The notes under the pieces: model-generated
Databases searched by the model: none
Told to the model about the DNA's origin: nothing
Seen by the model: only the letters and a program-made list of their open reading frames with translations
Translations under genes and position numbers: made by a program
Part shown: positions 51,362-56,374 of the stretch, in pieces
Layout of the letters: every line of letters starts with the position of its first letter
How positions within the stretch are numbered: the first letter of the stretch is position 1
Assembly: GCF_001425235.1 (NCBI RefSeq)
Contig: NZ_LMEA01000001.1
Coordinates: 471,855-535,854, forward strand
Reading direction: 5' to 3'
Origin: Devosia sp. Root413D1
Lineage (GTDB): Bacteria > Pseudomonadota > Alphaproteobacteria > Rhizobiales > Devosiaceae
Length of the DNA stretch: 64,000 bases

Positions 51362-52924
51362 TCAGCCCTTCCGCCGCCGCAACCGGCGCAGCAGTCCACC
51401 CAGCCGCTGCACCCCGGTGAGGTGCGCCAGCGCGAAGTAGAGCCCCGCCCCGAACACGCAGAGCGCCAAGAGCGCCAGTGCCTGTACCGGGAAGAAGTAC
51501 CCTGGGTCGAACACCGGCCCGAGCAGTAGCACGAGGCCGTAGAGCGCGCCGGACATCACCAGCGTCAGCAGCACGATCATGCCCTCCTGCCGCCACTCCG
51601 CACCGCTGATGGTGAAATGGCCGCGACGGGCGAGGAAAATGGCCAGAAGCACGACGTTGGCCCAGGCGGCGATCGAGGTGGCGAGCGCGATGCCGACATG
51701 CTTCAGGGTCGGGAACAGCGCCAGTGACAACACGATATTGATGATCAGCGAGACGAAGGCGAACCAGGTCGGCGTCTTGGTGTCCTTGCGCGAGAAGAAC
51801 CCCGGCTGCAGCACGCGGATCAACACGAAGGCAGGGAGGCCCACCGCGAAGGCGATCAGCGCATGCGAGACGTTGACGCTGTCGGTCGGCCCGAAGGCGC
51901 CGCGTTCGAACAGCACCCGCACCACCGGCAGGGAGAGCGCGATCAGCGCTCCGGCGGCCGGCATCGACAGCAGCATCGAGAGGAACAGCGACTGGCTCTG
52001 GCTCTGCCGCGCCTCGAGCTCGCGCCCGGCGCTGAGGTGGCGGCTCAGTTCGGGCAGCAGCACCGTGCCGATGGCGATGCCGATAATGCCGAGCGGCAGC
52101 TGGTACAGCCGGTCGGCATTGTAGATGATCGACATGACCTCGTCGGCGCCCGAGGCGATGATGGTGCCGACGAAGATGTTGATCTGCGTGATACCGCCCG
52201 CGATGATCGCCGGCACTGCGAGGATCCAGAACCGCCTGACCTCGCTATCGAAGCGCGGCCACCGCAGTTTCGGCACGAAGCCGGCGCGGCGGATCGCCCA
52301 GTAAACCAGCGCCAGCTGCGCGATGCCGCCGAGCATGGTGGCGATCGCCACCCAGAACGCCGTGTCCGGCGCCTCGAGCGTCAGGATCGCCAGGGGGATC
52401 AGCGCCCCGATATTGACGATGTTGAGCACGATCGGCGCGAAGGCAGCAGCAAAGAACCGCCCGAGGCTGTTGAGGATCGCCGCATAGGCCGCCATCAGCG
52501 ACATGCAGGCGAGATAGGGGAACATGATCCGGGTGAGAAACACCGTCAGGTCGAACTTCGCCTGATCGCCGACAAAGCCGGGAACGAACAGCACCATGAT
52601 CTGCGGCGTGAAAATCTCGACGAGGATGGTAACGACGAGGATCGCCGCCACCAGCCAGCTCATGATCCGGCCGGCCAGCTCCTTCGCCCCCTCATTGCCC
52701 TCGGTTTCGAGCGCAGTCGAGAACATCGGCACGAAGGCGGTGTTGAAGGCGCCTTCGGCGAACAGCCGCCGGAACAGGTTGGGAAAGCGGAACGCCGCGT
52801 TGAAGGCGTCGGACACCGGCGAGATGCCAAGCACCGCCGCCATCAGCGCATCGCGGGCAAAGCCGAAGATGCGCGAAACGAGAGTGAGCCCGCCGACCGA
52901 GAGGAAGTTGCGGTAGAGGCTCAA
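51362..52924 (-). CDS. murJ: Lipid II flippase MurJ (MviN)
   Basis: A 520-residue inner-membrane protein with about 14 hydrophobic segments that flips lipid II across the membrane. The start MSLYRNFLSVGGLTLVSR and FGFARDALMAAVLG are typical. The start codon is TTG at 52924, and it overlaps the stop of the DUF559 frame (TTGA), so murJ translation may depend on the upstream frame. Normally adjacent to glnD in relatives. Confidence 0.95.
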   Translation of the reverse strand: MSLYRNFLSVGGLTLVSRIFGFARDALMAAVLGISPVSDAFNAAFRFPNLFRRLFAEGAFNTAFVPMFSTALETEGNEGAKELAGRIMSWLVAAILVVTILVEIFTPQIMVLFVPGFVGDQAKFDLTVFLTRIMFPYLACMSLMAAYAAILNSLGRFFAAAFAPIVLNIVNIGALIPLAILTLEAPDTAFWVAIATMLGGIAQLALVYWAIRRAGFVPKLRWPRFDSEVRRFWILAVPAIIAGGITQINIFVGTIIASGADEVMSIIYNADRLYQLPLGIIGIAIGTVLLPELSRHLSAGRELEARQSQSQSLFLSMLLSMPAAGALIALSLPVVRVLFERGAFGPTDSVNVSHALIAFAVGLPAFVLIRVLQPGFFSRKDTKTPTWFAFVSLIINIVLSLALFPTLKHVGIALATSIAAWANVVLLAIFLARRGHFTISGAEWRQEGMIVLLTLVMSGALYGLVLLLGPVFDPGYFFPVQALALLALCVFGAGLYFALAHLTGVQRLGGLLRRLRRRKG

Positions 52925-53580
52925 CGGCTTTCCCCGTCGGGAGGGATCTGTGCGGGAAGAGTACCCCCTCCCCTGTCCCCTCCCCGCAAGGGGGAGGGAG
53001 ACGCCAACACTTCGCTCGGTGGTGCGGAGGCGCTCGCAGGTAGGGAGGGTCTCCTCCCCCCTTGCGGGGGAGGGACAGGGTGGGGGGTATTTGAGACCTT
53101 GGATATTGCCCCGAGCACCCCGGCGACCACCTCGTACACACCGCTCTCGTTTGTCAGTACGTCATCGTTGGTAAAGCGGAGGACGTGGATGCCTCTACCG
53201 CGCATATACTCGTCGCGAGCAGCATCGCGTTCGGGGCTTACATGGGTCTCGCCATCGACCGCGATGACGAGTTTGGCATGCATGCAGGCGAAGTCGGCGT
53301 AGTAGGGCCCGATCGGCTGCTGCCGGCGAAAGTGCCAACCATCTTCACGAAACTGCCATAGCAGGCGCCACAGGGCGCGCTCCGGACCGGTCTGGTTGTG
53401 GCGAAGGGATTTGGCCCGGGCGATGCTCAAAGAGACCCCCTGGGGGGGGGAGGGGACCAGGGCACGCAAGTCTTCGTTAGCCACTGACGGCAGTGTTGGC
53501 GTCTCCCTCCCCCTTGCGGGGAGGGGACAGGGGAGGGGGTATCTGCCTGCGCGGATCTCTCCGCGCGAAAGGCTACCCAT
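52921..53580 (-). CDS. DUF559 (Vsr-like PD-(D/E)xK) endonuclease-domain protein between glnD and murJ
   Basis: A 219-residue frame whose core (about residues 55-155, 53418-53116) is a DUF559 domain: ARAKSLRHNQTGPERALW, RRQQPIGPYYADF (D96), VIAVDGETH (D109-H113) and GIHVLRFTNDDVL. This domain is related to very-short-patch repair nucleases; substrate unknown. The residues before 55 and after about 160 are translated palindromic repeats J and I. Start is uncertain: ATG 53580 overlaps the glnD stop (ATGGGTAG), GTG 53484 is an alternative giving 187 residues. The stop overlaps the murJ start. It has no place in the conserved glnD-murJ pair, so it looks inserted. Confidence 0.75.
   Translation of the reverse strand: MGSLSRGEIRAGRYPLPCPLPARGRETPTLPSVANEDLRALVPSPPQGVSLSIARAKSLRHNQTGPERALWRLLWQFREDGWHFRRQQPIGPYYADFACMHAKLVIAVDGETHVSPERDAARDEYMRGRGIHVLRFTNDDVLTNESGVYEVVAGVLGAISKVSNTPHPVPPPQGGRRPSLPASASAPPSEVLASPSPLRGGDRGGGTLPAQIPPDGESR
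52962..53089. repeat. Palindromic element I (family 1), right of the DUF559 core
   Basis: Inverted arms taccccctcccctgtcccct (52962 on) and agggacagggtggggggta (to 53089). Positions 52962-53010 are perfectly repeated, inverted, at 53493-53541. It encodes the C-terminal tail of the DUF559 frame without a stop. Confidence 0.88.
53433..53541. repeat. Palindromic element J (family 1), left of the DUF559 core
   Basis: Arm 53493-53541 is the perfect 49-base inverted match of 52962-53010. The other arm (about 53433-53462, with a run of nine or ten G's) is more diverged. It lies between the glnD stop and the nuclease core. Confidence 0.85.
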
Positions 53581-56374
53581 TCGCCACCTTGGCCGCCTTT
53601 TCGTCCCCGCCCTGGAACACCGCCAGCAGCGCGTCGTGGATCTTTTTCTGGCGCGATTTCGACTCGATCTTATGGCCGGTGAGGTCGGTGACGTAAAAGA
53701 CGTCGACGGCCTTTTCGCCATAGGTGCCGATATGGGCCGAGCCGATGGTGAGGTTGAGGTCGGAGATCTGCCGCGTCAGCTGATGCAAGAGGCCGGTGCG
53801 GTCGAGCCCCATCACCTCGATGACGGTGAACTTCTCCGAGATGGTGTTCGACACCGCCACCTGTGCCGGCAGGGTGAAGGGTTTGAGCCGCTTGTTGTGG
53901 CGGCTTTCCTTGCCGAGGTCGATCAGCACCTGGCGCTTGCCCTGCAGCAGCTGTTTCACCGTATCGATGATGCGGGTGGCGCGGACCTTTTCGTCCTCGT
54001 CCGAAGTGAAGGAGCGGCGCAGCCGGAAGGTGTCGACGGCGCGGCCGTCGCGAGTGCCGAAAATCTGCGCCCCGATGATCGAGGCGTCGGCCATGGTGCA
54101 GGCGCCGGCGATCAGCGACAAGAGCCGTGGGTGGTCCGGGGTGTAGAAGCTGACCTCGGTGATCGACTCGAAGGATTTGACCCGGATCGAGCCGGCGAAC
54201 ATCTGCCCGGCCTGGTCGGCGGCGCGGATCATCCGGGCATGCTCGACCTGCAGTTCCGGCTCGGCGCGCAGCCAGTAATGGTCGTAGTGGCGGCCGACAT
54301 AGGTATCGACTTCCGGCGCCGGCCAGGCGGCGAGCGCACGGCGCAATACGGTCTTTGCCGCCTCGATGCGGTCACGTTGCGTCACCTGGCTGTGGCCGCC
54401 CGAGAGCAGCGGCTCAGTGGCGTAGTAGAGGGCGCGCAGCAGTGAGCCTTTCCAGCCGGTCCATACTCCGGGGCCGACCGCCCGGATATCGCAGGCGGTG
54501 AGGATCATCAGCAGCGCCAGCCGCTGCGGCGATTGCACCACATCGGCGAAGGAGCGTGCGGTTTCCGGATCCTGGATATCGCGGCTCTGGGCGATCTCGC
54601 TCATCAACAGGTGATGTTCGACCAGCCATGAGACGGTGTCGGTCTCGGCCGGATCGAGCCCGAGGCGCGGGCAGAAGCGGCGGGCGACGCGCGCCCCGGC
54701 GATCGAGTGATCCTCGGGCCGGCCCTTGGCGATATCGTGGAGGAACAGCGCCACGTAGAGCAGCCGCGTATCGTTGAGATGCGGCAGCAGTTCATGCGTC
54801 AGCGGCAGCTGTTCACGCAGGCCCCCATTGGCGATGTCGGCCATCACCCCGACAGCGCGGATCAGGTGCTCGTCCACCGTATAGTGGTGGTACATGTTGA
54901 ACTGCATCAGCGCGACGATCTTGCCGAATTCCGGCACGAAGCGGCCGAGCACGCCGGCTTCATTCATCTGGCGCAGGATGCGCTCGACATAGGTCGGCGC
55001 CGTCAGGATCTCGAGGAACCAGGCATTGGCCTGCTTGTCGTTCCTCAGGTCATGGCCGATCAACTTGAACGAGCGGCGGATCAGCTTGATGGCGTCGGGG
55101 TGGAGGTGCGCATCGTGCCGCCCCGCCAGCATAAAACCCTTGATCAGGTTGCGCGGGTCCTTCTGGAACACCTCTGGCCCGGCGACATTCAGCCGACCGC
55201 CTTCGATGACGAAATCGGTCTCGCCCTTGATCGGCACCTTGCCGCGCTTGAACGGCGCCAGTACCCGCCCGACCATGTCGAGGGGCTTGGCGTGGTCGAA
55301 TTCGAGCGAAGTGCAGAAGATGCGGGTCAGGTCGCCGACATCCTTGGCGACGAGGAAATAGCGCTTCATGAAGCGCTCGACCCCGAGCATGCCGGCACGG
55401 TCATTGTAACCGAGGCGTTGGGCAAGGTCGGGCTGCACGTCGAAGGTCAGCTTTTCGTCGGCCCGGCCGGTCAGGAAGTGGAGGTTACAGCGGATCGCCC
55501 AGAGGAAATCCTCGGCCCGCTGGAACAGCCGGTATTCCTCGGCGCTCAAGACGCCCTTGCCCACCAGTTCGGCGCTGGATTTGACCCGGTAGAAATACTT
55601 GCCGATCCAGAACAGCGCGTGGAGGTCGCGCAGGCCCCCCTTGCCGTCCTTGATATTGGGCTCGACCACATAGCGGGTGTTGCCCATCTGCCGGTGCCGT
55701 TCGTCGCGCTCTGCCATCTTGGCGGCGATGAACTCGGGGCCCGTCTTGGGCATGATTTCGCTTTCGAACCGGCGCACCAGCTCGTCGAACAGCTTCCGGT
55801 CGCCGGTGAGGTAGCGTGCCTCGAGCGTCGCCGTGCGCACCGTCATGTCGGAGCGGGCCATGCGGATGCAGTCGTCGACCGAGCGCACGGCGTGCCCGAC
55901 CTTCTGGCCGAGGTCCCACAGCATGTAGAGGATGTATTCGGTGATCTGCTCGCCCCAGGGCGTCTGCTTGTAGGGCAGGATGAATAAGAGATCGATGTCG
56001 GAGCCCGGGGCCAGCGTGCCGCGGCCATAGCCGCCGACCGCGGCAATCGAGATCATCTCGGCGCCGGAGGGGTTGTCGACCGGATAGACGTCGCGCACCG
56101 CGAAATGGTGCACTGCGCGAATGATCTCGTCTTCGGCGGCGCTGAGGTTCATCGCGCAGCGCGTGCCCTTGCCGGTCGCCATCAGCTCGGCCTCGGCGCC
56201 CGTGCGGGCGTCGGCGAGCACCGAGCGGACATGCTGGAGCACGATGCCGCGGCTGGCAGCGGACTTGGGGTCCTGACCAGCGACGAGCCGCCGGATGTCG
56301 CCGAGAATGGTCTCGGCCGAAGTCAACTGGAAGGCCGGTTTTCGCGGTCGGGCGTCAATTTCGGCGAGCTGCAT
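53573..56374 (-). CDS. glnD: Protein-PII uridylyltransferase / uridylyl-removing enzyme
   Basis: A 933-residue bifunctional nitrogen sensor that modifies PII proteins. Nucleotidyltransferase motif [18 protein letters not shown] (114-131, D126 and D128), GlnD helical region, HD hydrolase domain ([14 protein letters not shown], about 595-610) and two C-terminal ACT domains ([20 protein letters not shown] and [19 protein letters not shown]). The ATG at 56374 lies inside the last codons of mutS (20-base overlap), so the two are coupled. A small hairpin gcgcgga-loop-tccgcgc follows its stop at 53548-53565. Confidence 0.96.

Follow-up and report, generated by a model that had tools for sequence, protein, structure and literature searches.

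A DUF559 nuclease gene within matched inverted palindromes in Devosia: a probable REPtron-like mobile element with a homing-type nuclease

Background

The closest described systems are the REPtrons, in which the gene of a RAYT (TnpA-REP) enzyme is flanked by REP/REPIN palindromic repeats that belong to enzyme-specific families and of which many further copies lie bare, often as inverted pairs (PMC3733652, PMC8266576, in the available parts of both papers). For the GTAG class of repeats, the RAYT is given as the cognate enzyme, and for the CGTC class none is given, the CGTC REPs being described in the available text as without a dedicated transposase (PMC3733652). No word starting with GIY or DUF occurs in the main text of that paper, by Di Nocera et al. 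(PMC3733652). Nuclease genes have been connected with mobility in other settings. I-Bth0305I is described, in the text available, as a homing endonuclease of the EDxHD type (PMC3943268), and in an evolution study of Legionella the accessible part of the text names two kinds of recombination hotspot, regions next to GIY-YIG genes and segments that carry a transposase together with DUF559 (PMC12308824). A literature search, in which few subscription papers were included and bioRxiv was not covered, returned no paper that in its available text links DUF559 or GIY-YIG genes to palindromic repeats in the way described here.

Results

The window, by which we mean the whole 64,000-nucleotide stretch of Devosia sp. 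Root413D1 DNA that was analysed, contains a gene for a DUF559 (Vsr-like) nuclease at 52921-53430 on the minus strand, flanked by murJ (51362-52924, minus strand; PF03023, E = 6.6e-119) and glnD (53573-56374, minus strand; PF08335, E = 2.4e-46). The DUF559 protein matches PF04480 with 98.3 bits against a curated cut-off of 20.6 (E = 3.1e-28), and the Pfam matches to all three genes confirm the placement of a DUF559 nuclease between glnD and murJ that a sequence-only reading had proposed. The coordinates are those of a plausible short reading, based on start, stop, motif and alignment, from an inferred TTG start at 53430 to a stop at 52921-52923, with the domain core at about 53116-53427. On the murJ side, an outer palindrome, with its head at 52978-52998 and its tail facing away from the gene, occupies 52962-53002 and an inner one 53049-53093 (head 53053-53073, tail towards the gene), the latter of the same subtype as that beside related genes in G009 and G014. 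On the glnD side lie an outer palindrome at 53501-53545, its head at 53505-53525 and its tail likewise facing away from the gene, and, at about 53433-53463, a degenerate GC-rich palindrome that matches the repeat weakly (scores of 10.5 and 10.0 for the two orientations), possibly, though doubtfully, the remnant of an inner glnD-side palindrome. All window palindromes around the gene are of one family (family 1), and the layout with a palindrome pair on either side is also found elsewhere, for example at G011:C39 and G014:C279.

The two outer palindromes form a 49-nt inverted repeat (left arm 52962-53010, right arm 53493-53541), which was perfect on recheck, as the sequence-only reading had it, and in which the match continues one base further inward; a repeat search of the window recovered the same inverted repeat as 61 nt at 93%. 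The palindromes had also been placed within about 30 bases on each side. This stands for the murJ side, where the palindrome at 53049-53093 stops 22 nt short of the core (53116), and not for the glnD side, where the nearest intact palindrome (53501-53545) is about 70 nt from the TTG and only the degenerate, weakly matching one lies less than 30 nt from the gene. The count of about a dozen repeats in the window agrees with the 15 C-rich heads found by the pattern detector. Between 52921 and 53115, the DUF559 open frame crosses two palindromes and stops within the repeat region, and the last ~ 60 residues of the protein are repeat-encoded; such C-terminal residues are probably common among annotated DUF559 proteins.

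Foldseek matched the predicted structure of the DUF559 enzyme (mean pLDDT 84) to a DUF559 structure from Neisseria (E = 1.9e-6), to the I-Bth0305I catalytic domain (E = 3.6e-5) and to Vsr (E = 0.016), and a profile comparison of DUF559 with I-Bth0305I gave E = 0.012. The Foldseek matches of this model also included proteins of the mitochondrial ribosome from Toxoplasma gondii (best E = 1.8e-4) and from Tetrahymena (E = 0.046). At a position that is Glu in 64 of the 65 genus proteins fitting the motif, and by eye also in 9 genus proteins outside the motif pattern, the window protein has Ala (IAVDG), and because this Glu is near-invariant, the window copy is probably a relic, judged from its residues. 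On the DUF559 tree, the window gene groups with the G009 gene at the same site (78/99 residues identical) and also with genes of G014 and G004 that occupy another site, and these G014 and G004 relatives carry the inner repeat subtype of the window nearly letter for letter.

Bracketing was scored by matching the 200 nt to the left of a locus to the reverse complement of the 200 nt to its right, with a threshold of 18. The window locus scored 56.5; of the six DUF559 loci in its own genome, five scored 20 to 56.5 and the sixth 11.5. Across the 19 genomes of the genus, which hold up to 11 DUF559 loci each, a matched inverted palindrome pair was present at 56 of the 72 scorable loci and 16 fell below threshold, with 76 hits in the sample, from which two fragments in long frames and two contig-end loci with one flank missing were left out. 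Among the named loci, 16 of 22 reached the threshold and 6 did not, two of the 16 being the same loci as genus rows (L007 and L008 duplicate two G014 rows). Control windows taken elsewhere in the same loci never reached a score of 18 (0/1748). At class level 18 of the 30 best-scoring DUF559 hits were bracketed and at phylum level 12 of the best-scoring 28 (6/16 outside the class), both being non-random samples from within one phylum; loci L248-L252 were left out of the analysis. Matched palindrome brackets are, thus, far commoner at the DUF559 genes of relatives than in control windows, the outcome of the comparison in relatives that the sequence-only reading had proposed.

A gene-blind bracket scan covered 61 pieces (1.25 Mb, masked N excluded, interiors of 300-1600 nt), 21 of which are the window itself or stretches that were fetched for a DUF559 gene or have one nearby. 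It returned 25 brackets. The 17 with less than 500 nt inside were, by coordinates, 16 DUF559 genes and one GIY-YIG gene, and the 8 larger ones surrounded other genes, with a single orthologous region accounting for 7. The 40 tiles (800 kb) that had been retrieved for other reasons than a DUF559 gene of their own contained two brackets, the GIY-YIG gene and one with 1346 nt inside. A larger sliding control was discarded: 251 of its 39877 windows passed, and 58 of the 60 listed fall in L080, where scores of 200 would reflect masked-N runs matching each other.

The two flanks of one DUF559 locus match each other and the repeat family differs between loci, so the proposed link to a single repeat family has to be corrected to many families, each with its own DUF559 clade. 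On a DUF559 tree of 60 cores, five repeat families required 4 changes, the minimum, compared to an average of 21.2 (lowest value 16) in 500 shuffles of 38 rows, and of 8.5 (lowest value 5) when one row was kept per site and family (20 rows). For this parsimony test 8 of the 46 bracketed rows ("other"), including the row of the window, were dropped, and the family rules were set after repeats and tree had been seen; the trees used 107 columns and 27 of 57 inner branches were starred. In a Mantel test, for which the repeat distances were computed before the tree, protein and repeat distance were correlated over 923 DUF559 pairs at different sites (rho 0.38, 0/2000 permutations). Fifteen tree rows were added later, one of them a corrected re-reading: by eye, 11 fall with their own repeat type, 2 are unbracketed, 1 is unplaced and 1 has a repeat unlike those of its neighbours. 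At site S03, the DUF559 gene of G015 is of a different clade and has different repeats compared to those of G000, G004 and G007, and since the cassettes of two clades at this site each have their own repeats, gene and repeats seem to arrive together. With the bracketing of relatives and the tracking of clade by family across sites, the idea that the nuclease is carried by the repeats is well supported.

Clade-specific predictions set in advance gave p = 0.0012 for family D, with a pattern that as run differs from the one noted beforehand, and a marginal p = 0.041 for family A (both one-sided). Four genomes that lack a clade A gene still carry repeats of family A (G002, 14; G006, 13; G010, 16; G011, 11), G013 has a clade A gene and by pattern no family A repeats, and G000 has 20 family D repeats and no clade D gene.

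The glnD-murJ gap was readable in 16 of the 18 genomes with a murJ match, one being at a contig edge and one lacking a found glnD end. In four genomes it measures 10-44 nt. G000 and G009 have a DUF559 cassette there; G004, G010 and G015 have a bare pair of family 1; and in G003, G007 and G012 the bare pairs are C-type but of a different or mixed family. The gap of the remaining four (G006, G008, G011, G013) is filled by other sequence, which in three of them includes, by eye, CGTC/TTCGA-like pairs. The gap of G008 (L108) has 373 nt with no evident palindrome pair and possibly codes for a small protein. Across species (L097-L114), the gap resembles a hotspot for different palindromic elements. 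Both gene and repeats vary here, and the gap comparison, to which the sequence-only reading had looked for insertion ends, would not by itself have settled the question. Of the sites occupied by a cassette in G004, S17 and S11 are free of repeats in G007 and are taken up in G000 by bare pairs from other families, and S08 has bare pairs in both; by eye, no target duplication was obvious at these three sites, the flanks of which differ between species.

Sixteen bare family A elements, chosen as close opposite pattern hits, were read. By eye, the tails of the 14 in G004 and G000 point inward, as in the cassettes, and a few tens of nt stand in place of the gene; 9 of these 14 share their head sequence with the S05 cassettes. 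The two in G001 have tails outward. By eye, and for family A only, the bare elements L293-L306 share their ends with the gene-bearing S05 cassettes. Among 35 close pairs in the tiles and the window, the tails point outward in 23 and inward in 6, with 6 unresolved, compared to inward tails in 24 of 35 cassettes; this difference between outward bare pairs and inward cassettes is not explained by the model discussed below. At site S00 (L058, L062, L065, L077), two DUF559 genes lie ~ 1.7-1.9 kb apart in G004, G006, G011 and G015, with different repeat subtypes around each. In the first ~ 4 kb of L083, L090 and L094, from three species, successive CACCTCCCCC-type repeats enclose ordinary genes of 0.9-1.2 kb.

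By simple patterns, the genome of the window contains 639 C-type and 441 CGTC-type heads. C-type heads number 7 and 1 in the two genus members without DUF559 and 41-721 in the 17 with it. In the class (190 genomes, the own genome among them but set aside for this comparison), the 46 genomes with strong DUF559 hits (at least 60 bits, compiled by hand) included 39 that have at least 5 C-type heads, compared to 11 among the 143 others, to which 17 genomes with weaker hits were assigned (Fisher p = 2.7e-23). The same counts with the C-type pattern read backwards were 3 and 2, respectively. Where a family offered one genome with DUF559 and one without, 11 of 12 discordant pairs ran in the same direction (p = 0.006).

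GIY-YIG genes, the only other gene family used as a control, were dropped as an unrelated negative control, as they too proved to be bracketed, by other repeats. In the genus, 13 of 21 short GIY-YIG loci were bracketed compared to 1 of 9 in longer frames, and at class level 16 of the 29 scorable best hits were bracketed. Their brackets (L173-L202, L203-L232; L274 8080-8620) are of a CGTC kind (GTCATCCC.., TTCCCGC..GCGGGAA) and a TTCGA kind. With repeat-type expressions written after the repeats had been seen, a C-type head was present at 84 of 90 bracketed DUF559 loci (at most 88 distinct) and the CGTC/TTCGA type alone at none of the 90, whereas bracketed GIY-YIG loci had the CGTC/TTCGA type in 26 of 29 and a C-type head in none. 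Protein and repeat distance were correlated here as well (Mantel rho 0.375, 0/2000, uncorrected for shared sites). Rank correlations in the genus were 0.64 (C heads) and 0.48 (CGTC heads) for the DUF559 count and 0.61 and 0.59, respectively, for the GIY-YIG count; since all four are positive, counts within the genus do not separate the two systems, and it is the locus types that do. There appears to be a parallel system of short GIY-YIG nucleases tied to CGTC/TTCGA repeats, and the short GIY-YIG protein is a candidate for the enzyme behind repeats that are described as having no transposase.

Discussion

The results strongly support DUF559 genes and their matching palindromes as co-inherited, moving units. 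The cassette is probably a REPtron-like mobile element, in which a Vsr-like nuclease gene sits within matched inverted palindromes and a homing-type nuclease takes the place of the RAYT. The best explanation of the sequence patterns is that the nuclease cuts and spreads the palindromes, and we infer that it acts on the repeats. Co-segregation shows that every DUF559 lineage is accompanied by a palindrome family of its own, and the bare pairs of the same families would be non-autonomous relatives of the cassette, which the data support. The nuclease would recognise its own palindromes and, judging from fold and conserved motif, nick or cut DNA at or beside them, and host repair or replication would copy the cassette or bare pair into the break. 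The process would amount to homing by a free-standing endonuclease, with palindromes in place of an intron.

A different role, which we consider unlikely, is that of a host Vsr-type repair nuclease policing palindromes or methylated sites, for which the nearby repeats would be substrates, terminators or insulators and would not be spread. The predicted Vsr-like fold would suit such an enzyme, as would the Caulobacter DUF559 protein VsrA, which the available text ties functionally to a cytosine methyltransferase (PMC12907096), and at site S01 (L063, L067, L078, L088) the DUF559 gene is kept in seven genomes, in five of them without bracketing repeats, possibly as a domesticated copy. A policing enzyme need not, however, sit bracketed by its own substrate, and up to 11 loci per genome at changing sites, in clades with their own repeats, argue against this role. 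Composite units of cargo between two elements are common for insertion sequences, and the DUF559 gene could likewise be cargo between two repeats that another enzyme, such as a RAYT, moves in trans. We rate this somewhat lower again, as neither one gene family nearly every time nor a split into clades by repeat family is expected of cargo, and the two genus members without DUF559 are nearly without repeats. The Legionella segments with DUF559 genes do also hold a transposase, according to the available text (PMC12308824); by analogy, the hotspots there would fit mobility of the nuclease genes, though with that transposase present. Finally, it is very improbable that palindromes entered tolerant gaps where DUF559 genes lie by chance, with brackets as independent insertions of common repeats: repeats are indeed abundant (639 C-type heads in the own genome) and the same gaps carry different families in different species, but the null, put forward in the sequence-only reading as two independent insertions of one common repeat, fails on the tracking of DUF559 clade by family across sites, with both sides of a locus matching, and is rejected by the control windows (0/1748), the 800 kb of DUF559-independent tiles with two brackets, one of them GIY-YIG, in the gene-blind scan, the genome-level counts, and the Mantel and parsimony tests.

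Beyond the REPtron-like cassette itself, DUF559 and GIY-YIG, two unrelated homing-endonuclease folds, may each drive their own palindromic repeat superfamily as nuclease-only elements, with CGTC repeats belonging to GIY-YIG and C-rich CCCTC repeats to DUF559, a generalisation we offer tentatively and would not yet bet on. Two nuclease families inside palindromic repeats, matched by lineage, make the spread of these repeats directly testable and offer a concrete candidate function for numerous genes of the DUF559 and short GIY-YIG kinds. A mobile element may explain the spread of some very common bacterial repeats, and if this is true, a genome could acquire hundreds of palindromes without any transposase chemistry.

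Comparison with known systems

The bare family A elements resemble a cassette minus its gene, as MITEs resemble insertion sequences, but the cassette is without a classical transposase and no target duplication was seen by eye. With the Vsr and VsrA mismatch endonucleases the enzyme shares its fold, VsrA of Caulobacter being itself a DUF559 protein in the available text (PMC12907096), and differs in having bracketing palindromes and several clades per genome. Free-standing homing endonucleases (EDxHD, as I-Bth0305I, and GIY-YIG) have the same catalytic fold and, as proposed here, the same principle of selfish spread by cutting; they act at one allelic site, whereas here dozens to hundreds are scattered, with palindromes at the ends and no intron. 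The CGTC REPs of Alphaproteobacteria are likewise inverted palindrome pairs in the same genomes and appear here to bracket GIY-YIG genes, whereas the DUF559 repeats are C-rich (CCTCYCC..GGRGAGG), without the CGTC-type tag and TCC-rich stem. From the REPtrons, the cassette differs in its enzyme, a Vsr-like nuclease compared to the HUH tyrosine transposase of RAYTs, and the GTAG tag of REP-RAYT repeats was not seen by eye in the C-rich heads of the printed DUF559 repeats. It resembles them in that the gene is flanked by its associated palindromes and in that the repeat families are specific to the enzyme lineage.
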